Shown piece after piece: positions 13,438 through 62,328 of a stretch of 64,000 nt of DNA. The translations under genes and the position numbers were made by a program. Every line of letters starts with the position of its first letter. Positions within the stretch are counted from its first letter, which is position 1. The DNA comes from a virus: positions 19,299 to 83,298 of IMG/VR virus record IMGVR_UViG_3300028840_004763. One strand, given 5' to 3'. The notes below the pieces were generated by a model that was not told where the DNA came from, did no database searches, and saw only the letters and a list, made by a program, of their open reading frames with translations.

Positions 13438-16400
13438 TGGCCCTCGAAGGTGTGAATCGCTATGCAGAGCTGATCAAGGCCATCCCGCCGGGGCCGTTCT
13501 ACGATTCGCGCGGCATTGTCGTTCCGTACCGGCACGGAAACCACGAAGTGCGCCTTGAAACCGACAATCCGAATACCACTTATATCCTTTATATTGCAGG
13601 AGTTTATTCTGGTTCTGTCGTGTCGGACATCAACGGGAATGTTGTCTTCAGTCGCCATCTGGATCGTGGCGAGAACGAGATCCGACTCGTCAATTCCGAG
13701 ACCAACAATACCCTCATCAGCTACGTGACTGTGCGGGAGTACGCCCTGTGGCTCATAGCTTATGCGGAGACCTTCGAGAGCATCGACGACGACTGGAAGG
13801 AAGCCTACGACGACATCTTCATCGAGACGGTCACCGTCAACGGCATCGAAGGTCGTTTTGGTCGCGACATCCAGACCTACAACAATATCGGGCAGTCCCT
13901 GGACGACTATCGGTGGCTCCTTCACGAGCTGCGGTTGGCATACCGCAACTATGGGGGACGATTTCGGGGTTTCGAGACCGCTGTGGCCGAGTTTACCCAG
14001 ATTCCGCAGTTCGGCTACTCGCGCCGGCTCTGGGGTCCGAACTGGACCTTGGATCAGTCGATGCTCATCAACGCCCGTTGGAAAGAACGGTCTCACGTCG
14101 TCTCTTACAACGGAGCTGGAATTACCGGAGTCGCGCTTGACCGTGTCGAAGCAGATGTTCCTTCTGGAGTTGCGGCACGGGTCATCCAGTACGATGCCAC
14201 GCTCGATTCCCTACGGTGGGGAACTTTCTTGACGCCCGGTCCTTACGTGCCGGCGAACGATGGATTGCTGTTCCTGCCAGGACCGCCCTCGACCGTACCG
14301 GCGTTCATTCTGGGACTCGCGGGTCCTTTCGCTCTGGCAGCTGCGGAGACGACTCTCTATATCGATGACGGCACCGGGACCATTATTGTGCCGTTGGTCA
14401 CGGGATGGCCGACACCGACAGCGGCACAGGTGGTCGGCGACATCAACACGGCGATGGGGTACGCCTTGGCGTCGGTCTACAACGGCAAAGTGCTCCTGGT
14501 GAATCCGGCCTCGCAGCCACTCCTGGAGATTGAACACGGCGCGAACAACGCCGCCGTCCGGATCTTCGGCGTCGAGCCGGGCAATCTGACATTCGCTCCG
14601 AACGTCATGAACGGGGTCACCATTGTCAGTATTTCGGGATCGGTGGACGTCAACGCCAACTCCGAGATCGCCTACCGATATGATGGGTCCGTGACGCCGC
14701 CGACCAGGGAGCTACGCTGGCGCTCGCCACTCGCGGCCTGGTCGCCGTGGGTCTCGATCAGCGGAGATGGCACCTACTCGCTCATCGATGGTTTCGGCTA
14801 CACCTTGAAGGTCCATTGCTACGAAGATGACATGGACGTTCTGAGCGGTCCGTGGCCCGCCACAACGTCCGTTCTCTTCTCCGTGGGGTACGGCAAGGAG
14901 GCGAGGCAGATCGAGCAGACAGGGGGACTCTGGGTGTACGTGGATCGCACCCAGCTGCCGGCCATCAACACTTTCGACTTTGTTGACGTCTTCGATGATG
15001 CTTCGACCCCGGGCGTGGCCGAGCTTCCTGATAACTGGTGGCTTGGGCTGCCGCTGCCAACGACTTCTACAGTCATTCTGGAATCCAGGGTCGTGACCGA
15101 CAAGATCGATCTCTATGATCCTTCACCGGCTTTTCGGGTGCATCTCCAAGATTCTGGTGCGCGGGTTCACGAGCTGTTTTCGAGGGTTCTTCAGTACCCG
15201 ATGCCCCGACCGGGTCCGAGGGGTCAGAACTATCCGCAGCAGAGTCCGGGCCTCTTCTACGACTACGAGGGCTTCAAGGCGAAGTTCTCCGGCTGGGTGT
15301 CCAGCACCACGGTAGGGCCAACCACAGCCACGCTGAGCTTCTCTTTCGACAACGGGGCTACCTGGGTGTCCAGCGCGCCTTTCCCGGTCGTACAGGATAC
15401 TGGGGGCTTCTGGTACGAAGATTTCACCTACATCGAGTTCGAGACCATCATCCCCGCCGGTCTCACTGACAACGGGGTCTTGGTGGCCGTCACCATCGAT
15501 GACCCCGTGGGCATCGATGTGATGTTGGATAGCTTCCGTGTGGACGTCGAATACATCACCTCTCGGGTTCTGACGAGCAACACCGTCGTCAGGACGCGTC
15601 ATCGGCAGTACTTCGGCGAGCTGGCGTGGACGTGGTCCGTAGATCCGCTCTCCCTCCTGGAGAAGGAGTATATCGGACTGCCCCACAAGCGCCCCGACAA
15701 GACAGTGCCGATCTCCGGCGTCACGGTCACTGACATCTCGATGGACACCGATCCGGGGAATGGCACCGTCGACTACGAGTACAACAGTCTCGGGGACATC
15801 CACCGGCTTCGTTGGAACGCTCCGAACGCTGCGTGGGGTCCGGGGCTCGGCTGGGTCTCGATCCTGAGTGCGGGAGCTTACGTGCTGCCGGCGAGCGACG
15901 GATCCTCGATGACGACCTTGGTGGACTACGCGTTGCTGCCCGTGCTGGACGGCACTCCTCCGGGAGCCACGATTACCCGGAGCGTGACCATCACCGATAC
16001 CACCATCCGGCAGGGACACGTCCGGAGGATCTCTCCGGCTCATTCGTCCATCGATATCTTCGATGTTACCGAATATAATTCGGATAATGTGCCGATCAAT
16101 CTCAAGGGAGCCGTTACAGAAGGTGATTTTTCCTCCTGTACCCTCACAAATCTCGATATCCATGCGTCGAGCCCCTTCCGGTACTCGTACCTCCTCCCGA
16201 ACCTGCTTCCCGTGGAGGACGAGCCGCTGACGTTCTCGGTGGCCGCTCCCTACGTGGCTCCCCTTCTCTATGATTCGGACCAGGATCAAGAATATGCCAT
16301 GTTGTTCGAGGATGGGATTCTTGTTCCGAACGATCAGTGGTGGTTCAATTCCGCATCCGAAGTTCAGGTGGCTACTGCTTACTACAACTCTGGTGCCACT

Positions 16401-17027
16401 TACACCATCAGCTACAATCCGATCTGCGTGATTGAGACGCCGTTGTTGGATCTCGGCGCTCTCACCTACCAGGACTACGTCTGGTTCGCTGACTACATGC
16501 TCTGGGATCGGATGGAGCACAACGTCATCGGACGCATCGTGACCGTGCCGCTCTTCTTCAATCCGGACATCGGTCGCACCACGCTGGAGTACCGCTCCTC
16601 AATGGACATGGCGGTCTCCAAGCTCTACATCGAGGACGCAGACGGACGCAGGGAGATCTCGACGGCCAACTGGAGGTTCATCGACCCGACCACGGTCGAG
16701 ATGGACGCTTCCCAGTTCGTCGGAGGCGCGGTCTATTACCTGGAGCACGAGGAAATCCGGATGTATCGGCAGAGCGCCTTGACGATCACTTTCGAACACC
16801 GCTCCGGCGTAGATGCGCCGTCGTGCCTGGCAGCCGGCTGGAACACGATCCAGCGCAACGAGAACGTCGACGTGAACCAGAGTCCGGCAGGACACCTGAT
16901 CCATCAGCTGCGCCTGTCGGTGAGCAACATCCGCGATCTGAGCGACTTCAAGATTCGGTCCTTGGTGCTCAAGGGCCTTCACATGTTCGGGAGCAATCCG
17001 GACATACCGGGGTTGACCAATGTATAG
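13437..17027 (+). CDS. Giant beta-rich tail protein
   Basis: A 1196-residue protein, probably a baseplate-to-fibre connector or fibre. The ATG at 13437 is chosen because GGAGG at 13424-13430 is well spaced; a GTG three bases upstream is the alternative. The N-terminal 200 residues include beta strands and a helical segment (DDDWKEAYDDIFIETVTVNG). Residues about 393-482 and 761-853 are two copies of a beta module that also occurs twice in the 18773 gene. The rest is strand-rich with jelly-roll-like segments. The C-terminal 120 residues include VDVNQSPAGHLIHQLRLSVS. It overlaps the lipoprotein gene by 8 bases. Confidence 0.6.
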   Translation: MALEGVNRYAELIKAIPPGPFYDSRGIVVPYRHGNHEVRLETDNPNTTYILYIAGVYSGSVVSDINGNVVFSRHLDRGENEIRLVNSETNNTLISYVTVREYALWLIAYAETFESIDDDWKEAYDDIFIETVTVNGIEGRFGRDIQTYNNIGQSLDDYRWLLHELRLAYRNYGGRFRGFETAVAEFTQIPQFGYSRRLWGPNWTLDQSMLINARWKERSHVVSYNGAGITGVALDRVEADVPSGVAARVIQYDATLDSLRWGTFLTPGPYVPANDGLLFLPGPPSTVPAFILGLAGPFALAAAETTLYIDDGTGTIIVPLVTGWPTPTAAQVVGDINTAMGYALASVYNGKVLLVNPASQPLLEIEHGANNAAVRIFGVEPGNLTFAPNVMNGVTIVSISGSVDVNANSEIAYRYDGSVTPPTRELRWRSPLAAWSPWVSISGDGTYSLIDGFGYTLKVHCYEDDMDVLSGPWPATTSVLFSVGYGKEARQIEQTGGLWVYVDRTQLPAINTFDFVDVFDDASTPGVAELPDNWWLGLPLPTTSTVILESRVVTDKIDLYDPSPAFRVHLQDSGARVHELFSRVLQYPMPRPGPRGQNYPQQSPGLFYDYEGFKAKFSGWVSSTTVGPTTATLSFSFDNGATWVSSAPFPVVQDTGGFWYEDFTYIEFETIIPAGLTDNGVLVAVTIDDPVGIDVMLDSFRVDVEYITSRVLTSNTVVRTRHRQYFGELAWTWSVDPLSLLEKEYIGLPHKRPDKTVPISGVTVTDISMDTDPGNGTVDYEYNSLGDIHRLRWNAPNAAWGPGLGWVSILSAGAYVLPASDGSSMTTLVDYALLPVLDGTPPGATITRSVTITDTTIRQGHVRRISPAHSSIDIFDVTEYNSDNVPINLKGAVTEGDFSSCTLTNLDIHASSPFRYSYLLPNLLPVEDEPLTFSVAAPYVAPLLYDSDQDQEYAMLFEDGILVPNDQWWFNSASEVQVATAYYNSGATYTISYNPICVIETPLLDLGALTYQDYVWFADYMLWDRMEHNVIGRIVTVPLFFNPDIGRTTLEYRSSMDMAVSKLYIEDADGRREISTANWRFIDPTTVEMDASQFVGGAVYYLEHEEIRMYRQSALTITFEHRSGVDAPSCLAAGWNTIQRNENVDVNQSPAGHLIHQLRLSVSNIRDLSDFKIRSLVLKGLHMFGSNPDIPGLTNV

Positions 17028-17295
17028 GATTACGATTGAGGTGATTTTGGTTATGTTAGCTTTCATCATCTTTTCGTCCGGCTGTCACGATGGATGTGAA
17101 CCGGAAGAGATGAAGTGTGAAGGCTCCAGGGTCATGATCTGCAACGCCGAAACCGATTGGGAGGTCCACGACGACTGTGCCGACGTGGAGGACTTCGGCC
17201 AGGATCTGGAATGGGTGTGCTGCGAAGATCCGACTGACGGAATCCCGGCGTGCCTCCCGATCGAAGCCTGCGAAGAACTGGACGGAGGTGTGTGA
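17020..17295 (+). CDS. Small Cys-rich lipoprotein
   Basis: A 91-residue protein with an N-terminal hydrophobic signal (VILVMLAFIIF) ending in a lipobox-like FSSGC, so Cys22 is the probable lipidation site. The mature part is acidic and has nine further cysteines arranged as C..........C.G......C......W....C, resembling Cys-rich repeats common in proteins of Myxococcota and related bacteria. It overlaps the giant tail gene by 8 bases and the metallopeptidase-like gene by 1. Possible roles are superinfection exclusion at the outer membrane, or a spanin-like role, but the Cys pattern is unlike Rz1. The function is unknown. Confidence 0.6.
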   Translation: MYRITIEVILVMLAFIIFSSGCHDGCEPEEMKCEGSRVMICNAETDWEVHDDCADVEDFGQDLEWVCCEDPTDGIPACLPIEACEELDGGV

Positions 17296-17900
17296 TGCCG
17301 CAAGTATCTGGGGATCAGGTCCGGCTCTACTGGAAGTACATGCAGAAGCAGTACCGCTTCAAGGTGGTCGACAAAGACGACGCCGGGGAGATGCAGCTCA
17401 TCGGATGGGCGCTCGACACGATGGGCATCCAGGACCAGGACTACTTTCTGCACAACTACACGACCACTGTCGGCAGCAAGATCTACATCCCCTTCGAGGT
17501 CGGCGTCGGCACCCAGAAGCAGCTCGTTGGGCAGATCATGACCTGCGCCCACGAATGCCAGCACATCGTGCAGTCGCGCCGTGATCCAATGTACGAGATC
17601 AAGTACCTCACCAGTGATGCTGCCCGGACGCTCTACGAGGTGGATGCCTACCAGGCGAACATGGAGATCCACTGGTGGTGGTATCAGAAGACTTTGAATC
17701 CGACGATTCTGGTAAACACTTTGAAGGGTTACAGCATCGATGCGCCGAACCGGCGCGTTGCCAAGAAGCGCTTCATCAGCGCGAACAAGATGATCGAGTA
17801 CGGTGGCGTCACTACTGGGACGGCCATCAAGACGATCCGGTGGTGCAACCGGAACCTGAAGCCGGCCCGGTCGCGGACGGTTCGCGTGATAAAAGTGTAG
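17295..17900 (+). CDS. Putative zinc metallopeptidase (HExxH)
   Basis: A 201-residue protein. The start is the ATG at 17295, overlapping the preceding stop by one base; a longer frame upstream would run through the lipoprotein gene. Residues 86-90 are HECQH, an HExxH zinc site within TCAHECQHIVQ. About 25 residues later YEVDAYQAN supplies Glu115, a plausible third ligand in gluzincin-like geometry. A FVLHNYTT-like beta section precedes the site. The substrate is unknown; a tail-processing or envelope-protein cleavage role is inferred from context only. No signal peptide is visible. Confidence 0.55.
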   Translation: MPQVSGDQVRLYWKYMQKQYRFKVVDKDDAGEMQLIGWALDTMGIQDQDYFLHNYTTTVGSKIYIPFEVGVGTQKQLVGQIMTCAHECQHIVQSRRDPMYEIKYLTSDAARTLYEVDAYQANMEIHWWWYQKTLNPTILVNTLKGYSIDAPNRRVAKKRFISANKMIEYGGVTTGTAIKTIRWCNRNLKPARSRTVRVIKV

Positions 17901-17903
17901 GAA

Positions 17904-18776
17904 ATGATAATTAGAGATAAAGAACGAGAAGTTCGAACCTGCACTAAGTGTATGGAAGTAAAGTCTTTTTCTGAGTTTTCTTACTCAAGAACTGGTTTTG
18001 CTAATCGAAAGAGTATGTGTAAGAATTGCATGTATGAACATCGTCGCGAATACATGAAGAATTACAAGAAAAAGAAACTCAAGACTTTTGTTGAGGTTAC
18101 ATCTGGAGTTAAAACATGTACGCATTGCAAAGTAGAGAAACCGGTAACTGAATTTAGAAAACTTGTTACAGTTAAGGACGGTCGTCAGAGTTGGTGTATC
18201 CGATGTACTCAGAAGCAGAGTCATGAGCGGGATAAACGGTTGAACTTCCCCCCTCGCAAGGAAGGGGTAAAAAAGTGTTCTCGATGTGAACAAGTCAAGT
18301 CTGTACGAGAATTTAGTCCGCATAAATACCATAGGGATGGTTTAGCTTCTTGCTGTAAAAAATGTGATGGACAACGTAGTGTATGTCGCAACAGACGTGA
18401 TCCGCAGTCGAGATTGGCTTCAACTTTACGGAGTCGTTTGTTGGTAGCGTTGCAGTATCGTGATGGGACGGGCTATAAAGGAGGATCTGCCGTAGCAGAT
18501 TTAGGGTGTACAATTCCAGAATTGAAGAAATATTTGGAAGATCAGTTTTATCCGCATCCCCATACTGGGGAATTGATGAACTGGGATAATTGGTCTAACT
18601 CGGGATGGCAGATCGATCATATAAAGCCTCTTTCTTCTTTTGATTTATTGGATCGGGCACAATTTTTGGAGGCATCTCGGTATACAAATCTACGACCTTT
18701 ATGGTTGGTAGATCATATTAGGAAAACAAAGCGGGAGCAGAAAGCTCTGAAACTTTCTGAGGAGAAAAAATCATGA
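17904..18776 (+). CDS. HNH homing-type endonuclease
   Basis: A 290-residue protein. The N-terminal half has three CxxC...CxxC zinc-binding units (starting CTKC near residue 12, CTHC near 72 and CSRC near 127), which resemble the zinc-binding part of phage HNH or recombination-endonuclease-VII-like proteins. The C-terminal half carries the nuclease signature: WQIDHIKPL (first His), YTNLRPL (Asn), and a final His in VDHIRKTK. The gene is clearly more AT-rich than both flanks and uses AT-rich codons, a sign of recent acquisition. It fits tightly: 3 bases after the previous stop, and its TGA overlaps the ATG of the fibre gene. Confidence 0.8.
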   Translation: MIIRDKEREVRTCTKCMEVKSFSEFSYSRTGFANRKSMCKNCMYEHRREYMKNYKKKKLKTFVEVTSGVKTCTHCKVEKPVTEFRKLVTVKDGRQSWCIRCTQKQSHERDKRLNFPPRKEGVKKCSRCEQVKSVREFSPHKYHRDGLASCCKKCDGQRSVCRNRRDPQSRLASTLRSRLLVALQYRDGTGYKGGSAVADLGCTIPELKKYLEDQFYPHPHTGELMNWDNWSNSGWQIDHIKPLSSFDLLDRAQFLEASRYTNLRPLWLVDHIRKTKREQKALKLSEEKKS

Positions 18777-24093: not shown

Positions 24094-25290
24094 ATGCAGC
24101 TGTATGGAAGTCTGGGAAGGATCGAAAATGTAGTTGTCCCGGTTCTGACTGGGATGCTCACACGAGTACGGGAGCACAAGGAGAAGGTCATGGCGGATGA
24201 TCGTAGGTACAAATGTCCTCTCTGCGACTTCGGAGAGAAGGGCGACAAGACCAAGCGCGCAGTCAACATCCATCTGGGGACGGGCCACAAGGACGTCCCG
24301 AAGGAAGAACGTCCGGCACCTATCGAAGTTGGCGGCGAGTCTCCAGAGATGCCTACGGCTGCGGAACCTGGAACCGAACCTCAACCTCCGACGCAGGAAC
24401 CCCCGGTTCCGGAACGGGAGTCCAAGCCCGTTTCTCCGGAAGACGCCCCACAGCCTCCGAGCGCGGCTCCTCCGTTTCCCCCTCCGGACGCCCCACAGCC
24501 GCACCCGACGAGCATCACGCCGGGATCGGCCCTTCTGCTCAACGGTCCAGCATGGCAACAGAACCCCGCGACCAAGGCGTGGGAGGCTGGTATCGCCGAC
24601 CAGTTGACCGTCCAGGTGCTCAAGAAGGAGTTGTCGACATCGGGGGATGTGGTCCTCATCTGCCGTGCGGAGAAATCCTCGGTTCTGTGGTCCGTCCAGG
24701 AGGAACTCGTTCTGAAGGGGATCGTGAAGCTTCTGTATCTCGCTCCGGGGAAACCTCACATCGAATCGGAGGCCGCGCGCCCGGAAGATGGTCCTCGTAA
24801 CATCTCGGATCCCGAGCACAACTACTTCGAGAAGCAGCGCAAGGCGCAGGAACTGCGGCAACAGCAGGAAGCGGAACGTGAAGATTACGGTACACGTCTC
24901 AGGCGCTATACCGATGCGAATCGCCGCAAGAAGAGCGCTGAGAAGGAGTTCGAAGCGATCCGCGAGGAGGACTACGAGAAGCTCAAGTCCTATGTCAAGA
25001 AGTACGGAGAGCCTTCGGGACCCGGCAAGGACGACTGGATGATTGTCGATTTCGACTACAAGGCTCACATCGTGCGCCGACCCGGCGACAGCGGAGTCAA
25101 GCTCGACACGGAAGTCATCGTCCAGTGGCTGCGTGATCACGACATGGAGGAGTGCTTGAACCACACCCTCAACATCACTGCCTGGGAGACGGCCAAGAAG
25201 GAGGGGAAGGTTCCTGCCGACTTTGTTCGTGAAGTCGAGGAGCCTTACAAGGATGCCGACGACTTCCAGTTCCGTATCGATCCTCTCTGA
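24094..25290 (+). CDS. C2H2 zinc-finger protein with Pro-rich linker
   Basis: A 398-residue protein, unrecognised. A C2H2-type finger lies near residues 41-65 (CPLC then HLGTGH), followed by about 85 Pro/Glu-rich residues. Residues about 250-310 are a charged coiled coil (KAQELRQQQEAEREDY), and there is an acidic C-terminal domain. The start at 24094 has GGAGG well placed; an in-frame ATG at 24190, just before the finger and preceded by AAGGAG, is a strong alternative. It follows a candidate promoter and precedes the exonuclease gene. A DNA-binding role is inferred from the finger alone. Confidence 0.55.
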   Translation: MQLYGSLGRIENVVVPVLTGMLTRVREHKEKVMADDRRYKCPLCDFGEKGDKTKRAVNIHLGTGHKDVPKEERPAPIEVGGESPEMPTAAEPGTEPQPPTQEPPVPERESKPVSPEDAPQPPSAAPPFPPPDAPQPHPTSITPGSALLLNGPAWQQNPATKAWEAGIADQLTVQVLKKELSTSGDVVLICRAEKSSVLWSVQEELVLKGIVKLLYLAPGKPHIESEAARPEDGPRNISDPEHNYFEKQRKAQELRQQQEAEREDYGTRLRRYTDANRRKKSAEKEFEAIREEDYEKLKSYVKKYGEPSGPGKDDWMIVDFDYKAHIVRRPGDSGVKLDTEVIVQWLRDHDMEECLNHTLNITAWETAKKEGKVPADFVREVEEPYKDADDFQFRIDPL

Positions 25291-25326: not shown

Positions 25327-26898
25327 ATGAATGTCGTTCTCCTCATCGACGGGAACCCTCTGCTCTGGCGCGCGGCCTACGCCGGCTACGGAACCGGCGA
25401 CAGCTCTCTGGCGAAAGGGGTCTTGAACTACTTCTACTCGATGATTCACAAGTTCCGACCGCAGGACCTCGTGGTGTGCTGGGACAAGGGAATGTCCTGG
25501 TGGCGCTCGCAGCTCTACCCCGATTACAAGGCTCACCGGATGGAGAAGAAACGGGAGAGCGACATCGATCTGGAGATGGTCCAGGAGCAAGCAGGCTACG
25601 CCAGGAGGTACTTCGAGGCCCTCGGGGTGCGTCAGGTCATCTTGCCTGGCGTCGAGGCTGACGACGTCCTCTCGTGGCTCTCAGAGCACTATCTGAAGCG
25701 CATCGAGCACTTCCCGGATTGGAAGATCGTCATCGCTACCGGGGATCAAGACCTGTGGCAGCTCGTTCGGGAAGATGGGCGCATCCTCATCTGGGATCCT
25801 CAGAAGGAACTTCTAGTAGATCATTCAAAGGTAGTGGAGGTCCTTGGTGTATCTCCGGAACGCATCCCCGATCTGAAGTCGATGATGGGGGATGCTTCGG
25901 ACAATTTGCCGGGGGTGAAGGGGATCGGCCAAAAGATAGGCTCGAAGTTGCTCCGCGAGTACGAGACGTTGGGCAATATCATGAGCCTCGATGAGAACCT
26001 CATCAAGGAACTGAAGAAGCGCAAGACGACGGCGCGGATCCTGGATGCCGATGACGTTCTTGGGGAGACGTACCGTCTTGTGAAGTTGCCCGCTATCCGC
26101 GAAGCCGCGCATTGCCTTTCTTCACAGGACCTGAAGCTTCTTCGAGAGCAGCTCGGGCAACCGCTCGACCGGGATTCCTTCCGACTCCAGGTGATGGCGG
26201 AGCGCATCGGGAAGTCGTGTGCGAACATCGAGCCGTTGGTTCCCACGTCGGCTTCGGATCTGACGGTCATGGTGGATGAAATGGAAGTATATCTATCGAA
26301 TCAGACCTGGACCGATCTTCGAGAGGTCGACTGGGCGATCCTCGGATGCAACCAGTGCGCTCTCCGGGCCGACACGGGCGAGAAGGGGCCGACTCTTCCC
26401 CAAGGTCATCAAGGGGTCGACATCATGCTCGTGGGCCGTAACCCTGGCCAGCAGGAGCTGGAGAACGGTGTTCCGTTCTGGCCGGATGCGCCGGCAGGAG
26501 GTCGGCTCAATCGCTTCTTGGAGGTGGTTGGTCTGGAGCGACACGAGTGCTGGATCACCAACGCGTGCAAGTGCTACTCCCAGGCCAATCGTCCTCCGAC
26601 ATGGCCCGAGGTTTTGGCGTGCTCGCGGTATCTCCGGGCCGAGATTGACCTCGTCAAGCCCAAGCTCATCATCTGTTTCGGTAACGAGGCGATGAGTCTC
26701 GTCACTCCATACCGGAGCCGGGTGACGAAGCACTGCGGCGAGATTCTGGACAAACCCCGCAGTGTGATCGGTGACATCGACGCGCTGGTGGCAATCAGCG
26801 TACATCCGTCGGCGGCGTGTCGGGGTGGTCAGGGAGAATCGAACATGCAGTACGCCGAGACTAACGTCAAGGCCCTCCTGGACAAGGTGACCCAATGA
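25327..26898 (+). CDS. 5'-3' exonuclease (FEN) fused to family-4-like uracil-DNA glycosylase
   Basis: A 523-residue two-domain protein. Residues 1-285 are a FEN/PIN exonuclease: LLIDGNPLLWRAAYA at the N-terminus, GVEADDVLSWL, ATGDQDLWQLV and a helix-hairpin-helix SDNLPGVKGIGQKIGSKLL. Residues about 325-523 look like a family 4 uracil-DNA glycosylase: CNQC (341-344), the active-site-like VGRNPGQQELENGVPF, WITNACKC (Cys416), LACSRYL (Cys432) and SVHPSA (His493). The four Cys positions fit a 4Fe-4S cluster. The family A polymerase at 38305 lacks a 5' nuclease, so this gene supplies it. The next gene overlaps by 4 bases. Confidence 0.8.
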   Translation: MNVVLLIDGNPLLWRAAYAGYGTGDSSLAKGVLNYFYSMIHKFRPQDLVVCWDKGMSWWRSQLYPDYKAHRMEKKRESDIDLEMVQEQAGYARRYFEALGVRQVILPGVEADDVLSWLSEHYLKRIEHFPDWKIVIATGDQDLWQLVREDGRILIWDPQKELLVDHSKVVEVLGVSPERIPDLKSMMGDASDNLPGVKGIGQKIGSKLLREYETLGNIMSLDENLIKELKKRKTTARILDADDVLGETYRLVKLPAIREAAHCLSSQDLKLLREQLGQPLDRDSFRLQVMAERIGKSCANIEPLVPTSASDLTVMVDEMEVYLSNQTWTDLREVDWAILGCNQCALRADTGEKGPTLPQGHQGVDIMLVGRNPGQQELENGVPFWPDAPAGGRLNRFLEVVGLERHECWITNACKCYSQANRPPTWPEVLACSRYLRAEIDLVKPKLIICFGNEAMSLVTPYRSRVTKHCGEILDKPRSVIGDIDALVAISVHPSAACRGGQGESNMQYAETNVKALLDKVTQ

Positions 26899-27842
26899 GC
26901 AAGCGTCTGGAAATCGACCGGAATTCCCCTGGCAACGAAAAGAAGCACTATGACGGCAAGTATCAACCCATCGATTTCATCGAGGACTGGAAGCTGGGCT
27001 TCACCGAGGGCTGCGTGGTCAAGTACGTGTCGCGCCACAAGAAGAAGAACGGCAAGGAGGATGTCAAGAAGACCATCTGGTATCTGAGCGTTCTCAAGGC
27101 GCGGTTCCAGTCGGGGAAGTTCGAGAAGCGCGAGTATCAAGGAGAGATCACGTTCAAGGAGTTCAGCAAAGCGCAGCATCTTGGCATCCTGGAGGACAAC
27201 ATCATCTACTGCATGCTCGATGCACTTCGGTATGGGCGCGAGAGCCGGGTTGACGACGCCATCAACTACGCGGTCGACTTGCTGAGATGTTACGAGACGA
27301 CTGGCGATGTGGTCGACCGGGCCTTCGGAGGTGAGGAGCCGGAGAGCTTGAGGCCCAAGGGTTCCGTGACTCGGCAGCCCTTCAAGTTGATCGAGGATCG
27401 GATCTTCGATGCGAACCCTTCTCCGCGTGGAGCACCCCATCCGAGGCGGTTTCATCTCGACGACGAGCGTGACAGCTATACAGTACGTTTTCAAATCAGC
27501 GGTCAGCACGGCTACTTCACGGTGGGCACCTACGCGGATGGTACTCCAGGTGAGGTGTTCATCCGTCTTGGCAAAGAGGGTGCAGAATCGCACGGTTTCG
27601 CGGACATGTGGGCCATCGCGGTGTCGATGCTGCTCCAGTACGGAGTCGATCCGAAGAAAATCTATGACAAGTTCAAGTTCCAGCAGTTCGAACCTTCCGG
27701 TTTGACCGGTGTGAAGAAGGTGACCTTCTGCAAGTCGATCCCCGACCTGATCATGAAGTGGATGGAACGCCGGTTGCCACCTACCGGAGGTCCGGAAGAC
27801 GATGATTATGGCGACGCCATCGAGGAGATGATCTCTCAATGA
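26895..27842 (+). CDS. DUF3310-TSCPD fusion, nucleotide metabolism
   Basis: A 315-residue protein. Residues about 12-75 match the DUF3310/T7 gp1.7 pattern (KHYDGKYQPIDFIEDW, FTEGCVVKYVSRHKKKNG, EDVKKTIWYL); T7 gp1.7 is a nucleotide kinase. Residues about 190-290 match the TSCPD-type domain at the C-terminus of B12-dependent ribonucleotide reductase (GYFTVGTYADGTPGEVFIRL, KEGAESHGFADMWAIAVSML, FKFQQFEPSG, CKSIPDLIMKWM). No reductase catalytic subunit lies in the window. It overlaps the FEN-UDG gene by 4 bases. Domain recognition is by eye; the fusion is seen directly. Confidence 0.7.
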   Translation: MSKRLEIDRNSPGNEKKHYDGKYQPIDFIEDWKLGFTEGCVVKYVSRHKKKNGKEDVKKTIWYLSVLKARFQSGKFEKREYQGEITFKEFSKAQHLGILEDNIIYCMLDALRYGRESRVDDAINYAVDLLRCYETTGDVVDRAFGGEEPESLRPKGSVTRQPFKLIEDRIFDANPSPRGAPHPRRFHLDDERDSYTVRFQISGQHGYFTVGTYADGTPGEVFIRLGKEGAESHGFADMWAIAVSMLLQYGVDPKKIYDKFKFQQFEPSGLTGVKKVTFCKSIPDLIMKWMERRLPPTGGPEDDDYGDAIEEMISQ

Positions 27843-28264
27843 GAGTGATCGTCCAGATCGGCTTCCAGAAGGCTGCTGGGAGACGTCGGGAGGGGCAGCT
27901 CGTCCAGGCCTGGGTGAACGACGAGGAATGCTCCTGGAGCGACGGCTGCGGGAAGTACCTCACGTCTCGCGCGGAGTCCGCTCAGGGCGTTCTCTGGTAT
28001 CTGTGGCAGGGAGATGTGGGCTCCGACGACACGATCCGCATCGCGGTGAAGACATCTTTGGCCAAGATCGGCACCGACGAGGCGCGAACCTTCGAGACAC
28101 TCTACTACATGAACCCGGATGCCCCGGTGCGGCAGATCGAGGTGAAGGGAGTGGGTCGTCGAGGCTATCCTCTGCTCAAGGGACGGCTCATCGAGGCAGC
28201 ACACGTCTCCGAGAAGGACAAGCGTGAGGCCGAGATCGAGGCCTTTCTGGAGGGGGACTTTTGA
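27839..28264 (+). CDS. Hypothetical protein
   Basis: A 141-residue alpha/beta protein, not recognised. It begins with a beta strand (MRVIVQIGF) and ends in a charged helix (VSEKDKREAEIEAFLEG). It overlaps the upstream stop by 4 bases and the downstream TTG start by 4, so it is translationally coupled to the DUF3310-TSCPD and helicase genes. Confidence 0.6.
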   Translation: MRVIVQIGFQKAAGRRREGQLVQAWVNDEECSWSDGCGKYLTSRAESAQGVLWYLWQGDVGSDDTIRIAVKTSLAKIGTDEARTFETLYYMNPDAPVRQIEVKGVGRRGYPLLKGRLIEAAHVSEKDKREAEIEAFLEGDF

Positions 28265-30069
28265 TCGATGTCTTCTTGAGACGCTGGCGCATCTGCGTCC
28301 GGCTCGATCCGACCCATCCCTACTACCAGCGGGCCTATCTGGTCGTGCGCTCGTTGCTGTCGGCCTACGAGATCGAAGAGAACCTCTGGACCATCAACTT
28401 CCACGACATGAACCTCCTCCGAGCCCGTTTGGACCAGCTCGGCCTGGTGGAGGGGCGCACCATCACCGATGATGCCTGGGACAGGCTCGCTTATCTGGGT
28501 TCTCGGCAGGTGCGCAACATCGACATCAAGCGGGGGGTCAACAACGATCAGGTTCGGGGTGCCCTCAACGGGAAGCTCAAGTGCGTGCCCTACGAGGACC
28601 AGCTACCGGCCATCTCCTTCGCCGTGAACAATCGGAGAGCCGGGATCTTCGACGAGATGGGGGTGGGGAAGAGCCTTGAGGCGCTCGCGGCTATCGTCGT
28701 CCTCGACACGTTGGTACGGCGTTCTCTCGTCATCTGTCCTTACACGGCCCAAATTTCCTTCAGACGGGAGGTTGAGAAGCATACCTACCTCAAGGTGGTC
28801 CAGGTGCCTTCGGGGCGTAAGCGGGCGTTCAAGTTCATCCAAGAGCACCAGGAAACCGAGTGGGACCTGATGCTCATCCACCCCGAGAATCTTATCGGAG
28901 GGGGCGGGCGAGGAAACATCTACGGAGACACTACGAAGCTATTGCGTTCGATGCTGTGGGATTTGATCATCGTCGACGAATTCCACATGTATAAGAACCT
29001 GACTGCCAAGCGCACGAAGTGCGTGTTATCCCTCCTGAATGAGTCGAAGGATCGGGCTGGGAAGCGCCCGAGGACCATCTTGCTGACCGGGACTCCCGTT
29101 TCGGAGAGCCCGTTGAACGCTTACGTGGCCCTGAAGGTGTTGACGCAGGGCTATCTGCCCCACATCAATAAGTTCGAGCATCATTTTGTCGTGAAACAGG
29201 CGATCAGCTACGGATCGAAGGGCACTCATGCCAAGGTAGTGGGATATCGCAACCTGGACGAGCTGAAAACGATGATCGAAGCTGTCTCCATCCGGCGCAC
29301 CAAGGCCGACATGCATGGATTTCCGGATCGCGTCTTCATGATCCGGGATGTGGAGCTGTCCGGGAAGCAGCTGGCCCTTTATCGCACGATCTGTGGCGAA
29401 ATCGTTGCCGGATTGCCGAAATCCACCGTCATCAACCTGATGCGCTTCTTGTCGAACAACACGACAGTGCTGCGCCTGCGCCAGGTCATGAATCATCCGA
29501 ATCTTCTCGATGAAGCTGGCGAATCGGCCAAATATGTCGAAATTGACAACATTCTTGAGGAGATTCTGGCCGATCCGGAGCAGAAGGTCATCCTGTGGAC
29601 CGAATTTCGACGCGCAGTTGAGAATCTCTACGAGAGGTACGATCCCATCTACGGCGCGTACCAGATCTACGGCGGCGTCACCAACGAGCAGCTCGAACAG
29701 ATGGCCTTCGACTTCGAGAACCGGGACAAGCCTCGCGTGGTCGTCGCCATTCCGGCCAAGGCCGGGACGGGTCTCGATTTCCTGGCTAGGGCGCGCACCG
29801 CCATCTACGTCGATCGTCCTTACAGCTTCACGCTTTACAAGCAGAGCATCGACCGCATCCACCGCCGGATCACGAGCGGCCAGATGTCGCGGCTGGATAC
29901 CATTCGGGCGAAGCCGGCGACGATGATCTTTCTGGATGTCATCAACTCCGTCGACGAGCTGATTCGTGACCGCCTGCACGGAAAGCAGGACCTCGCGGAC
30001 GCATTGACCACTTCGGACGAGAAGTTGGTCGAGCTGGGCCGTGAAGACCTGTTGAGGTACTTGAAATGA
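28261..30069 (+). CDS. SNF2-family DEAD/DEAH-type helicase
   Basis: A 602-residue superfamily 2 helicase. After a 100-residue N-terminal extension, motif Q/I reads YEDQLPAISFAVN...DEMGVGKS (Lys near residue 136). Motif II is DEFH near 240, motif III LLTGTPVSES near 276-285. In lobe 2, IPAKAGTGLDFLARA is motif V and QSIDRIHRR is motif VI near 540. This pattern is SNF2/UvsW-like and suggests branch migration, fork remodelling or replication initiation. The start codon is TTG, supported by GGAGGGGG 5 bases upstream and by overlap with the preceding stop. Confidence 0.8.
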   Translation: MIDVFLRRWRICVRLDPTHPYYQRAYLVVRSLLSAYEIEENLWTINFHDMNLLRARLDQLGLVEGRTITDDAWDRLAYLGSRQVRNIDIKRGVNNDQVRGALNGKLKCVPYEDQLPAISFAVNNRRAGIFDEMGVGKSLEALAAIVVLDTLVRRSLVICPYTAQISFRREVEKHTYLKVVQVPSGRKRAFKFIQEHQETEWDLMLIHPENLIGGGGRGNIYGDTTKLLRSMLWDLIIVDEFHMYKNLTAKRTKCVLSLLNESKDRAGKRPRTILLTGTPVSESPLNAYVALKVLTQGYLPHINKFEHHFVVKQAISYGSKGTHAKVVGYRNLDELKTMIEAVSIRRTKADMHGFPDRVFMIRDVELSGKQLALYRTICGEIVAGLPKSTVINLMRFLSNNTTVLRLRQVMNHPNLLDEAGESAKYVEIDNILEEILADPEQKVILWTEFRRAVENLYERYDPIYGAYQIYGGVTNEQLEQMAFDFENRDKPRVVVAIPAKAGTGLDFLARARTAIYVDRPYSFTLYKQSIDRIHRRITSGQMSRLDTIRAKPATMIFLDVINSVDELIRDRLHGKQDLADALTTSDEKLVELGREDLLRYLK

Positions 30070-31217
30070 GCGACTTCGTCACCGAGCAGGTCCACGCCGA
30101 CCTCTACGAGTACTCTCTCGCTTTGTCTCAGAAGTATGGCGTGCGCCCGGTCTATTTTACGAACAAGAACCTCCTCGATCCTCGGGAGTGCTTTGACGAT
30201 ATCATCTATCTTTCTCGATATTTTTGGACCTGTTTCGTCTTCACCGGCTTGCTGACGCCGTGGCACGATGATCCCGATCCCATTGGACTTCTTCGCAAGA
30301 GTGTCGACTACGTGCGCCGCTGGCTCTGGATCTGTGAGGACATGGATGTCGATTGGCGCAGTTACTGCGTGCTCTCCTTCTGCATGACTCCCTACGAGAT
30401 GTATGAACGTCCTACGATGCTTCTTGGGCAGCGCAAGCACTGGACCTGGATGCGCAAGTTCAGGAAGTACACCAAGAGTCGAAAGCTCGTGGATGAAGTG
30501 GCCTTCTTCATGCTGGAGTTCATTCGTCTTCAGATCGAGCACAGCGGACGCGCCTCCTTTTCGAAGCGTGTCTTCATCGGCCCCGACTTGAGCAGGGGAG
30601 TCGAGAAGGGAAAAGCTCCTCCGAAGACATTGGTGCTCTATCAGCAGGTTGCGAACCGTATCAATCAGATTCACAACGAAGGGGTCGACTATCTCGATTG
30701 GTTGGTGCTCAAGTGCCGCAATCTTTACAAGATGGCTCCCGAGCAGCCTCTCCAGATCCAGACGGTTGTGAACGTCAACCAGCTCGATCCCGATTTTGAC
30801 CTGCTCCGTATCCGCGCTGCCGACGAATGGCGCGCGGTGCGGGAGTTCTTGGGGCTCTCTTTCGAATGTGAGTTCCCAGACGGGGCGATTCCGAAGGGAT
30901 GGCAGCCGGCTTCCGACGACATGATCGACCGGAGCAAGATTCGGAGAATCACCGCTGACGGTTACTACTACTATGCGGACGGCACCCAACGACGCGGTAA
31001 GCGTCACTATGCCACCAACAAGTACCTGACGATCCGAGTGTCGCCCGAGAACTTCGAGGAGTTCCATAAAGAATGGGATGATCCGCGTCTGTTGACGGCT
31101 ATGCCGACGTGGGAAGAGTACTCGCGTTACGGAATGTATCCTGATCTGTGGGACGAGAATGGTACCAACATTTCGCCCTACCAGGCGATCCGGGACGTGC
31201 GCTGGAGGAGGGGATGA
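30066..31217 (+). CDS. Hypothetical protein in replication cluster
   Basis: A 383-residue protein, not recognised. It is rich in Trp, Tyr and Arg (DYVRRWLWICEDM, GQRKHWTWMRKFRKYTKSRK) with several Cys, and has a basic patch around residues 118-140 and a C-terminal Tyr-rich beta hairpin (ADGYYYYADGTQRRGKRHY). It overlaps the helicase gene and the Nudix gene by 4 bases each. Nucleic-acid binding is a guess from the basic aromatic composition. Confidence 0.6.
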   Translation: MSDFVTEQVHADLYEYSLALSQKYGVRPVYFTNKNLLDPRECFDDIIYLSRYFWTCFVFTGLLTPWHDDPDPIGLLRKSVDYVRRWLWICEDMDVDWRSYCVLSFCMTPYEMYERPTMLLGQRKHWTWMRKFRKYTKSRKLVDEVAFFMLEFIRLQIEHSGRASFSKRVFIGPDLSRGVEKGKAPPKTLVLYQQVANRINQIHNEGVDYLDWLVLKCRNLYKMAPEQPLQIQTVVNVNQLDPDFDLLRIRAADEWRAVREFLGLSFECEFPDGAIPKGWQPASDDMIDRSKIRRITADGYYYYADGTQRRGKRHYATNKYLTIRVSPENFEEFHKEWDDPRLLTAMPTWEEYSRYGMYPDLWDENGTNISPYQAIRDVRWRRG

Positions 31218-58491: not shown

Positions 58492-61400
58492 ATGAGCAAC
58501 GCAACACGGAAAGCCCGGTACAACCCCCGTCAGGTGAAGGACGCCGTTCTTCGGGGCAGGATCGTGGAAGCTTCGAGCGGCTGGATGATCCGGATCAACA
58601 ACAACGACATGGTCGAACTCTGGCCCCCTGGCGACCACGACGGGTACATGACCCACATCGGGCATCTCGATCGGGTGGTGGCCGACTTCTGCAAGAAGGC
58701 CGACATGCCGATTCCCAAGGTCAACGAGACCCAAGGTGATCAGGTCAAGCTTCCCGGCGATGCTCAGTCGCTCCTCGGCCCCGACTCCGACAGCAAGGAG
58801 CCGAAAGGGAAGTTCGATCCGGAGATCAACCAGCGTCCCAAGGGGACCGACCAGAAGGGCACCTCGAAACCGGATACATCCCTCGGTCCGGACTCGACGA
58901 ACAAGGGTCTCAAGAGCTTCGACCCGGCGATCAACAAGCGTCCACGCCCGAACATCGAAGAGGGTGGTCTCCCCGACACGAGCCTCGGTTCCGATACCTC
59001 CGGCGCTCCGACCAACTGGCACGACAAGAAGGTCCGCATCGAGGAAGACGGTCGGAACCGGTTCGGTCGTCGTCGGGGCCAGACGCAGGAAGACGTGATC
59101 GAGACGCTCCAGCAGATGCCGGGTGGTCGGCAGATGAGTGGTCTCGGAGAGCGCCTCCAGCAGCTGATGGAGAACTTCCAGACCAGCATCTCTGTCGAAG
59201 ACAATCCGGACGGGACCGTCCATCTCTTCGATGCTCGCAACGACATGGTTGTCGATCCGTTCATCGCCATCTCGGAGCTTCAACGGCTGCCGGTGGACTC
59301 CGATGAGGATGCGGTGTGGGACGCCTTGAGCGGTGCGTTCAGCGCGTGGTCCGAGGAAGACATGTCGGCGGTCGCCAGCAAGGAAGGGCTGCATGAGCCT
59401 CAGAAGCCCAAGCGCGGTCCCGGGCAGCTGGGTGTCGGGAAGGCCCAGATGGGCGAGGAGGCTCCTCAAGCGGCTCCTGGTGTCGCGGCACGGCGGAAGG
59501 CCGAAGAGGATCCCTTCAAGGTTCGTCCCGTCGAGGAGCCCGGCAAGAAGCTCAACAAAGGCGAGAACCCGTCCGACCCGGAGGAGGTGATCTCTCAGTC
59601 CAAGGGCGAGAAGAAGGAGCTGCGCGAGGAGACCGAAGGGAAAGGCAAGATGGGCATCCGCGACTCGTTCGAGGACGCCACTCCCGATCCCACGGCCATC
59701 TACCAGGACCTGCGCCGAGCGCGTCCCAGCGAGGATCTCCTGCGGGACATCATGGATCCTCAGAAGTGGGCCGCGAACAACATCTTCCTGCCTACTGACC
59801 AGGCCGAGAAGAACCAGCGCCGCGCGCAGATGTTCGAGGAAGAGGAGCCTTTCGATTACGATCGGGGAGACCTGAATCCCGAGCACCTCTACGACTACAT
59901 CCAAGACCTGAAGCGCGCCGCCGACGAGAGCGGCAACGACGCGATGTTCGAGCATCTCCGGATGGCCGAGCAGGCGATGGAGTCGGGGGACTACGGCGAG
60001 GCATTCGATCATGCGGAAGAGGCCGAGCAGGCGTTCGACGAGGAGGCCTGGAAGGTAGCTTACCGGCGGCATCAGGGCCGCGTGGTCAAGTTCGCGCAAT
60101 GGGCGCTCGGGGAGGATACTACCTCCGAGGCCATCGCGTATCTTGTCGACCAGGGTTACGACGAGCTGGCCGCGTCCGAGATCATCAATGCCTATCTGCG
60201 CGGAGATACTCTGGATTTCCAGTCGGCCTACCTGGCCGAGGAAGCTCTGGGTGGCGCGGCCAAGGCTGCTCGGCGGATCGGTCAACAGTCCGAGGTCACC
60301 GCTGAAGAGGACAAGGAAGCGGTGGCTCCGAAGGGCTGGGAGAAAACCGTCAAGGAGATGAAGGACGAGCCCGGCATCGACAACCCGTGGGCGCTGAGCT
60401 GGTGGATGAAGGACAAGGGCTATACCCCCGGAGGTTCCGAGGAGACCAAGAAGAAGGAGAAGAAGTCGCGGCGCACCGCAGGCCCCAAGCTCAAGGAGAA
60501 CTGGAGTGGCGACGGGAGTTACGGGCGTGAGATCGGCGCTGAATCCGCCGAGGAGCTGCACGCCCTCACGATGGCGTTGGGCGGCGAGGAGGTCGACTGG
60601 TCCAAGTTCAAGCCGGCGCAGCCGGAAGGCGCTCCCGTTGAGGAACAGGGTGTCGTCGACGAGCAGTCGGCGGAGCAGGTCGCTCCCGTTCAGGCGTCTA
60701 GGTGGGAGGACGAGCAATCCCCTTTTGATGACGACGTCCAGCCCGAACCGGGGATCGAGAAGTCTCTGGATTCGTCCGAACCGTCGCGGGAGGGCCGGCG
60801 TCGGGCGCTGACGCCTCCAGACGATGAAGAGATCGGTGCAGGTGAGTTCGCGGGCGACAAGCCCGAGACCACTTACGAATCCGGGATGGAGAGCATCGGG
60901 AACGTCACCGACATCAACTACGAACGGTTCGGGCCGGGCAAGTTCGATGACAACGTTCAGGAGTTTCTCTATGCCGGAATGCTGGACGGCTGGGGAGAAG
61001 ACCTTGGGGACGAGGGCTTCGGCGTCTACACCTTCTTGGATCTCGGTGAGCCCGTAACGGTCCACCAAGATGGCGACGAGTGGAGCTTCGCTGCCGCCAT
61101 CCTGCATGAGGACACCAACGGATTCGTCTATACCGATTACTTCGACACCTCGGAAGAAGGCGCGAAGGCGTGGGCCGAGCTGGAGAAGGACTACGAGGAC
61201 TTCCTTGACGAGTATCCCGAGTGGCGGGAGGGTCGGCGGCATGCCCAGGAGGCCGAGGTGGAGGGGGGCAAAGGCTGTCCCCGAGCCGAGAACCGGGGCC
61301 GTTCCTCGATGCCCGACGAAGATCACGAGGCCGCGTGCGACCGCAAGTCCGAGCGGGCCGAAAAGGAAGCCGTCGATCCGGAAGCCGAGCAGTACTGGGA

Positions 61401-62328
61401 AGGCTACATGGGCGACTACGGCAAGCAGCTCACCGAGGGAGACACGGGAAAGCCCAAGCCGGACACCAAAGATAAAGGAAAGAAGAAAGACAAGAAGAAG
61501 GCCGACCTGAACGATCCGGGTTACCAGAAGAGGAAAGCCGCGTATCTGCGCGCCCGCAGGGAGGCCCAGGCCGGCGCTCCGCTCGCCGAACCGACTACCC
61601 CGGCTCCGACACCCGCGCCTGGTGCTCCGCCGGCTGGAGGCGCTCCTGCGGCTCCTCCGGCACCGGCTGGTCCCGCGAAGCCCGAAGCTCTTCCTCCCGG
61701 AAGCGGCGATTCCGGTCTCCAGGCGCTCGGCTGGACTGCCGAGGATATCGCTCTGCTGGATGAGGAGGACAAGAAGAAGATCCTCCAGATCCAGCTGAAC
61801 AAGCCGGGAACCAAGAAGAAGCCGTTGACGCCGGGCGAGAAGCCGGGGGTACCCGAGCCCAAGGCTCCGACTCCTCCGACGCCGGCAGCCCCTGCTCCGG
61901 GAGGCGTTCCCAAGCCGATGACGCCGGCAGCCCGGCAACGGCTGGCCAAGCTGATCCTGCGCAAGGTCAACCGGCGCAAGCTTCTTTCGCAAGCCGCTCC
62001 GGAACCCGCTGCTCCCATGACGCCTGCTCCCCCTACGCCGGATGCTGGAGCGCCGGGTGCAGCTCCTCCCACTCCTCCTGCCGGCGCGGAAGCAACCCTC
62101 CCGGAGTTCGATGCGGGTGACGGTTCATCCGAAGAGGAGAGGGCTCTCCAGCTGCTGAGCGATGTTCAGGAGATGGAAGTCTCGGCGACCACCCCGGAGC
62201 AGGTGCCGTCGCTGAAGGCGAGCTTTCTCGCCAGGAAGCTGCTCACCGAGCTGGGCATGACCGTCCAGGACGCCAAGAAGCTGTACGGGTTGGGGTCCCA
62301 GAGGGGGCTGACGAGCCTGTTCGAATAG
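58492..62328 (+). CDS. Very large low-complexity protein
   Basis: A 1278-residue protein. The first 75 residues form a small folded domain (MIRINNNDMVELWPPGDHDG). Next come three TSLG.D- or SLLGPD-type repeats separated by FDP.IN.RP units (residues about 85-170), then long charged helical stretches. A YWEGYMGDYGKQL motif shared with the 55027 protein lies near 966. A Pro/Ala/Gly-rich segment follows (about 1030-1070). The overall look is a disordered internal virion or scaffold-like protein, which is inference. Strong codon bias leaves a long antisense frame across it. Confidence 0.6.
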   Translation: MSNATRKARYNPRQVKDAVLRGRIVEASSGWMIRINNNDMVELWPPGDHDGYMTHIGHLDRVVADFCKKADMPIPKVNETQGDQVKLPGDAQSLLGPDSDSKEPKGKFDPEINQRPKGTDQKGTSKPDTSLGPDSTNKGLKSFDPAINKRPRPNIEEGGLPDTSLGSDTSGAPTNWHDKKVRIEEDGRNRFGRRRGQTQEDVIETLQQMPGGRQMSGLGERLQQLMENFQTSISVEDNPDGTVHLFDARNDMVVDPFIAISELQRLPVDSDEDAVWDALSGAFSAWSEEDMSAVASKEGLHEPQKPKRGPGQLGVGKAQMGEEAPQAAPGVAARRKAEEDPFKVRPVEEPGKKLNKGENPSDPEEVISQSKGEKKELREETEGKGKMGIRDSFEDATPDPTAIYQDLRRARPSEDLLRDIMDPQKWAANNIFLPTDQAEKNQRRAQMFEEEEPFDYDRGDLNPEHLYDYIQDLKRAADESGNDAMFEHLRMAEQAMESGDYGEAFDHAEEAEQAFDEEAWKVAYRRHQGRVVKFAQWALGEDTTSEAIAYLVDQGYDELAASEIINAYLRGDTLDFQSAYLAEEALGGAAKAARRIGQQSEVTAEEDKEAVAPKGWEKTVKEMKDEPGIDNPWALSWWMKDKGYTPGGSEETKKKEKKSRRTAGPKLKENWSGDGSYGREIGAESAEELHALTMALGGEEVDWSKFKPAQPEGAPVEEQGVVDEQSAEQVAPVQASRWEDEQSPFDDDVQPEPGIEKSLDSSEPSREGRRRALTPPDDEEIGAGEFAGDKPETTYESGMESIGNVTDINYERFGPGKFDDNVQEFLYAGMLDGWGEDLGDEGFGVYTFLDLGEPVTVHQDGDEWSFAAAILHEDTNGFVYTDYFDTSEEGAKAWAELEKDYEDFLDEYPEWREGRRHAQEAEVEGGKGCPRAENRGRSSMPDEDHEAACDRKSERAEKEAVDPEAEQYWEGYMGDYGKQLTEGDTGKPKPDTKDKGKKKDKKKADLNDPGYQKRKAAYLRARREAQAGAPLAEPTTPAPTPAPGAPPAGGAPAAPPAPAGPAKPEALPPGSGDSGLQALGWTAEDIALLDEEDKKKILQIQLNKPGTKKKPLTPGEKPGVPEPKAPTPPTPAAPAPGGVPKPMTPAARQRLAKLILRKVNRRKLLSQAAPEPAAPMTPAPPTPDAGAPGAAPPTPPAGAEATLPEFDAGDGSSEEERALQLLSDVQEMEVSATTPEQVPSLKASFLARKLLTELGMTVQDAKKLYGLGSQRGLTSLFE

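Follow-up and report, generated by a model that had tools for sequence, protein, structure and literature searches.

The locus described here lies in a stretch of viral DNA of 64,000 nucleotides (hereafter the window; IMG/VR record IMGVR_UViG_3300028840_004763, positions 19,299 to 83,298), which is part of an 83-kb viral record; the locus is also present, 100% identical, in records of 146.8 kb and 188.6 kb. Its central feature is an open reading frame on the + strand (26895..27842, stop included) that starts with ATG and encodes 315 aa, in which a DUF3310 domain is fused to a TSCPD domain. The presence of both domains in one 315-residue protein had been proposed in an initial annotation of the window and is borne out by Pfam, as both matches exceed the curated cut-offs: DUF3310 (PF11753) is found at residues 16-64 (E 4.5e-11, 43.1 bits versus a cut-off of 24) and TSCPD (PF12637) at residues 203-292 (E 2.8e-11, 44 bits versus 22.8). 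In PHROGs, the first half of the protein matches DUF3310-type families named nucleotide kinase, and the second half matches the reductase families 84 and 23565. Along the + strand, the gene can be divided into the DUF3310 core (residues 16-75; 26940..27119), which keeps all the invariant residues of the family (Y19, K43, Y44, R47, K51, D56 and K59); an extension to the DUF3310 half that is predicted to be helical (residues 76-147; 27120..27335); a linker of low confidence in the AlphaFold2 (AF2) model (residues 148-182; 27336..27440); the TSCPD, or IscU-like, domain (residues 183-296; 27441..27782), here counted together with the RxxLxxxR motif that NrdJ, the class II ribonucleotide reductase, has ahead of this domain; and a short acidic tail (residues 297-315; 27783..27839), which stands where NrdJ has a six-Cys zinc finger. 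The same architecture occurs in three divergent phage lineages, represented by the window, L004 and L107, which rules out an assembly chimera. Two other contigs encode the identical protein (100%), and the versions in L004 and L107 share 63% and 48% identity with it, respectively.

The gene immediately upstream on the same strand (25327..26898, +) encodes a 5'-3' exonuclease of the FEN type fused to a UDG-superfamily domain, in which four conserved Cys of the iron-sulfur kind are accompanied by GRNPG and HPS motifs. Its stop codon (26896-26898) and the start codon of the fusion share the 4-bp sequence ATGA (26895..26898, +), so that the overlap of 4 bases originally reported is indeed there. 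The co-translation that had been read from it is no more than plausible, as the fusion gene has a Shine-Dalgarno-like AAGGTG of its own and about 2.4 kb of small ORFs lie between both genes in L004; L104, L107 and L108 do have an overlap here, like the window. Downstream of the fusion there follow a conserved gene of 141 aa (27839..28264, +), for which no family was found and which is 56-70% identical in the syntenic phages, and a SNF2-type helicase (28261..30069, +), a constant member of the cluster. Two genes without an assigned family, at 24094-25290 and 30066-31217, are likewise constant, the former with a C2H2-like zinc motif near its start. The resulting order (wHTH, 24094 gene, FEN-UDG, fusion, 27839 gene, SNF2 helicase, 30066 gene) is common to the window and four other phages, namely L004, L107, L104 with its near-copy L105, and L108. 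The region 31148-63357 forms a module for replication and recombination, which includes Pol A, RecA, a clamp-loader-type AAA ATPase, a DnaG zinc ribbon, RusA and a DUF192 protein.

Comparison of the syntenic phages distinguishes a constant from an optional part of the fusion. The slot occupied by the fusion holds a TSCPD protein devoid of DUF3310 in L104 and L105 (177 aa) and in L108 (188 aa), and no separate DUF3310 was found elsewhere in these records. Two lineages thus do without DUF3310 at this position, which makes TSCPD the constant part and DUF3310 the optional one. The upstream gene varies as well, as the FEN-UDG fusion is retained in L004, L104 and L107 while L108 has a UDG alone (200 aa) upstream of TSCPD. 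Within the fusion, identity to L004 amounts to 78% for TSCPD, 77% for the DUF3310 core and 44% for the extension (24% to L107), and among the neighbouring genes to 77% for the SNF2 helicase, 71% for FEN-UDG and 66% for the 27839 gene. TSCPD is therefore as conserved as the SNF2 helicase and more than the DUF3310 extension, which argues that it is under selection. Its retention alone in related phages suggests a separate job for the piece.

The second half of the fusion can be assigned, on the basis of the Pfam, PHROGs and NCBIfam matches, to the tail domain of a class II reductase. In particular, residues 179-294 correspond to positions 737-852 of the 960 of the NrdJ model PRK06556 (E 1.7e-31), a match that stays well below the full-length cut-off of the model, as expected of a fragment. 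The near-invariant residues of NrdJ tails are found again in the fusion (R185, L188, F199, Y207, D215, G216, G219, E220, F222, K227, G229, D237, S244, L247, Q248, G250, F265, P267, G269, T271, S281 and D284), with the exception of P252, which is D. The other parts of the enzyme are missing: the Pfam search of the ORF gave no catalytic ten-stranded barrel (PF02867), and the C-terminal zinc finger with its redox cysteines is absent, as there is no Cys after residue 279 and the ORF stops 19 residues past the domain. Unlike the fusion, the NrdJ tails compared run on past TSCPD into a Cys-rich zinc finger.

The two halves were modelled apart in AF2 because the joint alignment misplaced the short DUF3310 rows, so that the models give no relative placement; the mean pLDDT was 88.5 for the DUF3310 half and 87.6 for the TSCPD half. 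The TSCPD half is predicted to consist of three strands, helices, a two-strand pair and a helix. Its top Foldseek rows are IscU/SufU proteins, although weak (E 0.14), and its alignment to 1q48 by VIA-align (Z 5.5, rmsd 5.4, 100 residues aligned) is tied with unrelated folds; phmmer gave no match for the fusion among solved structures. The IscU/SufU rows agree with the IscU-like domain and zinc finger published for long class II tails, a domain whose role is unreported and for which oligomerisation has been proposed (PMC9669993). The three Cys cluster ligands of IscU are absent from the TSCPD domain of the fusion: residues 183-296 contain one Cys (279), and L104 has no Cys at that place. An Fe-S scaffold serving the four-Cys UDG was considered and ruled out, as the IscU ligand region of the TSCPD domain holds at most one Cys.

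The initial annotation had stated that the window contains no reductase, and this holds well beyond it. No PF02867 barrel (class I/II) was found in the 83-kb, 146.8-kb and 188.6-kb records of the phage, whose size is at least 188.6 kb, nor in a relative of 56.6 kb, and no class III NRDD in the 83-kb, 188.6-kb and 56.6-kb records. By the same PF02867 search, no partner chain of the NrdJa type is seen in the 83-, 147- and 189-kb records. Since these records are not proven complete, the absence of a reductase is strong rather than final. As for thymidylate synthases, whose presence in the rest of the genome had also been listed as a point to check, ThyX was found in the 188.6-kb record and ThyA was not.

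TSCPD domains with neither barrel nor zinc finger, here called orphans, are not confined to the cluster. A scan of viral contigs with an alignment of six TSCPD sequences gave 201 relatives, of which the best 80 were examined, a sample kept by similarity to the window and hence biased towards it; 18 distinct orphans were present among these 80 after removal of near-copies. A nineteenth is encoded by ctSAF950, a complete circular genome of 44.6 kb. PF02867 was not found in the further 17 orphan records searched nor in the complete ctSAF950. In cellular genomes, a two-sequence query gave no matches and a wider query gave 80 loci, every complete one of which lies within a NrdJ ORF with barrel and Cys-rich tail. 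Three viral contigs (L110, L131 and L180) encode NrdJb-like tails with no barrel in the contig, in which TSCPD is extended by a cysteine-rich stretch that has four Cys in L110 and six in each of the other two; these contigs are fragments, and as they stand such tails would have to work on a reductase in trans. A further phage protein of 462 aa (L123:5050-6435) ends in TSCPD, and its N-terminal part ends in CC...CxxC, as though a zinc ribbon had been shifted to the front of the domain. A tree of TSCPD supports the window clade well (100/98) and needs 8 changes to explain the orphan state, with well-supported branches forcing at least 2; given the few columns and long branches, the number of orphan origins is put at at least two. 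A degenerate remnant of a lost reductase is unlikely, considering the conservation of TSCPD and its recurrence.

The DUF3310 half is predicted to be all-helical, with core helices at residues 25-31, 36-47 and 53-73 and extension helices at 87-93, 98-113 and 116-136. Its best BFVD match is A9J523, the DUF3310 protein gp20 of Pseudomonas phage YuA (TM 0.71 on the query, 0.86 on the target), and by this match of models the extension would belong to an already known, longer type of DUF3310 protein. A MazG-type or other known fold was sought in the PDB with no clear match; the rows obtained for FliS and cytochrome b562 are common helical bundles and carry little meaning. With regard to function, T7 gp1.7, a DUF3310-containing protein, is described as a dGMP/dTMP kinase in the passages that cite it in PMC12846349 and PMC10700055, and strong toxicity to Mycobacterium smegmatis has been found on overproduction of a DUF3310 protein from mycobacteriophage Hammy (PMC10700055). 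The additional N-terminal half of gp1.7 makes the kinase label no more than probable for the DUF3310 of the fusion, and the toxicity of the Hammy protein leaves room for an inhibitory role. In YuA (14312-18507), gp20 sits between the putative dUMP hydroxymethylase gp17 and the DNA polymerase A gp21; in another phage (L005:7319-8468), a ThyX gene is followed by a DUF3310 gene with a short overlap.

The best explanation of the locus, which we propose tentatively and consider somewhat short of probable, is that the NrdJ-derived TSCPD domain docks in trans, most likely on a class II reductase of the host, and may thereby link dNTP supply to phage replication. TSCPD would be the essential part and would work as the docking module. 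The likeliest target would be the class II reductase of the host, bound at its catalytic chain or at the tail domain that matches TSCPD, at the site where the ancestor was tethered. The fusion would connect this deoxynucleotide-making enzyme to the replication proteins encoded in its neighbourhood (UDG/FEN, SNF2 helicase, Pol A), and the DUF3310 half, if present, could add a nucleotide-kinase-type activity or a further contact. A precedent is offered by NrdJb of Pseudomonas aeruginosa, a separate tail that binds tightly to the catalytic chain near the rim of the active site, mediates the exchange of disulfides and is required in vivo (PMC4520616). The fusion, which lacks both the zinc finger and the cysteines in it, cannot take on this redox task, and a NrdJb-like redox subunit can be ruled out on the same ground; retention of the IscU-like part without the redox part would make binding its most likely use. 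Docking is favoured by the descent of the domain from NrdJ, by its constancy and conservation, by its recurrence without a barrel, by the analogy with NrdJb and by its setting in a replication module. The conserved residues are mainly those that hold the fold (G, P and hydrophobic residues), so that conservation by itself does not prove a docking surface, and the kinase role has against it that it rests on a single member of the family, T7 gp1.7. A more far-reaching form of the proposal is possible but rather doubtful, according to which phages repeatedly took the IscU-like domain from a class II tail as a free plug that recruits the host reductase to the replication complex, with the window fusion adding a gp1.7-type nucleotide kinase.

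The conserved neighbourhood of UDG and TSCPD weighs against docking on a reductase in that it fits a partner encoded by the phage equally well, and TSCPD might have left reductase biology altogether to become an interaction module for replication or repair proteins such as UDG, FEN, SNF2 and Pol A, which we regard as possible although not likely. The two domains are encoded side by side in five related phages, even where the UDG is not fused to FEN (L108), and in L144 a UDG gene lies within 250 bp of TSCPD with Pol A adjoining. Moreover, a UDG-superfamily domain is present in 12 of the 13 distinct orphan records of at least 40 kb, whereas among phage records with a complete NrdJ, a control group unmatched for replication type, 10 of 26 have one (Fisher p 0.002); counting the window clade once gives 8 of 9 orphan records (Fisher p 0.018). 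Against such a partner, the UDG is distant from TSCPD in G017 and G019 and was not found in G011 and in the short fragments, and UDG domains are common in Pol A phages, so that co-occurrence may mirror the type of replication. The Pfam matches near the other orphans point to replication and nucleotide metabolism and include ThyX (3), Pol A (2), AAA (2) and DnaJ (2), along with UDG, dCMP deaminase, NT5C, RNase HII, endonuclease VII and an ERCC4 nuclease. In the L171 record (G018; 61220-61989), a separate DUF3310 gene is directly upstream of a 903-aa UDG-containing frame and the orphan TSCPD is located elsewhere. The coupling to UDG put forward in the initial annotation can thus be upheld as an association of genes, while the uracil control attached to it has this neighbourhood and co-occurrence as its sole basis.

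The remaining alternatives to docking on a host reductase are all improbable, to different degrees. The phage domain could act as a decoy that competes with the tail of the host enzyme or blocks its oligomer, lowering host dNTP synthesis while host DNA is recycled. A domain kept without its redox zinc finger is the build expected of a dominant-negative piece, and the toxicity of the Hammy protein points the same way; yet replication of a phage genome of about 190 kb consumes a great deal of dNTP, and the ThyX in its 188.6-kb record suggests support rather than shut-down of precursor synthesis, which leaves the decoy improbable. Lower still stands the function first suggested for the protein, a nucleotide-sensing or pool-modifying factor coupled to uracil control. 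The link of DUF3310 to a nucleotide kinase speaks for it, as do the UDG neighbourhood, the dUTPase gene located two genes from the orphan TSCPD of ctSAF950 and the vicinity of YuA gp20 to dUMP hydroxymethylase, dCMP deaminase and Pol A, but dUTPase and deaminase are not general neighbours of orphans. Nucleotide sensing in reductases is the task of the ATP-cone and of the specificity site of the barrel. These parts lie outside the IscU-like tail, TSCPD is not a known nucleotide sensor and no nucleotide-binding motif was found, so that sensing is unsupported; a nucleotide role is reasonable through DUF3310, and for the tail domain a binding module is the better reading. The least likely of all is that TSCPD serves only to oligomerise a DUF3310 enzyme: the role proposed for the IscU-like domain in reductases (PMC9669993) would agree with it, but TSCPD stands alone in the slot of L104 and L108 and in many phages without DUF3310 in the record.

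The IscU-like domain is part of many class II reductases. A phage TSCPD domain that lacks barrel and zinc finger and is nevertheless conserved like the best-conserved neighbouring gene suggests that selection acts on a function of the domain itself, and orphan TSCPD proteins may offer small natural reagents for finding the partner of the IscU-like domain. If the partner is the host reductase, they would reveal a new phage route to controlling the supply of DNA precursors, whereas a phage repair or replication protein as partner would mean that a domain of reductase origin now serves a different purpose. If the recruiting plug is real, dNTP supply would be steered by a phage without its own reductase, and a first function could be given to the IscU-like domain.

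As for what is already on record, the component families are known, and short phage TSCPD proteins are present in databases as ribonucleotide reductase (PHROG 23565, UOF79512). A full-text literature search gave no paper on phage TSCPD domains, and a description of such proteins as orphan tails was not found in the literature searched, where the DUF3310-TSCPD fusion also appears to be undescribed. PHROG 23565 and UOF79512 of ctSAF950 resemble the fusion in that TSCPD occurs in a phage without a barrel, in the case of ctSAF950 in a complete genome in which no reductase was found, but they lack DUF3310 and have diverged much further, to 32% in the domain. With the C-terminal IscU-like domain of NrdJ, the fusion has in common the sequence family, the residue pattern, the RxxLxxxR motif ahead of the domain and the predicted fold, whereas the fusion has neither the barrel before it nor the six-Cys zinc finger after it, is joined to DUF3310 and belongs to a phage without a recognisable reductase. 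NrdJb of P. aeruginosa is similar in that a reductase tail including the IscU-like domain is encoded apart from the barrel (PMC4520616), but in addition to a redox zinc finger it has a partner gene, nrdJa, in its own operon, and the fusion has neither. On the DUF3310 side, no other protein of this family met in the analysis has a TSCPD domain. T7 gp1.7 and other phage members share with the fusion the DUF3310 core with all its invariant residues, although gp1.7 differs in having a different N-terminal half of about 115 residues where the DUF3310 of the fusion starts at residue 16. The nearest relative in length and predicted fold is gp20 of Pseudomonas phage YuA, which matches both the core and the helical extension.
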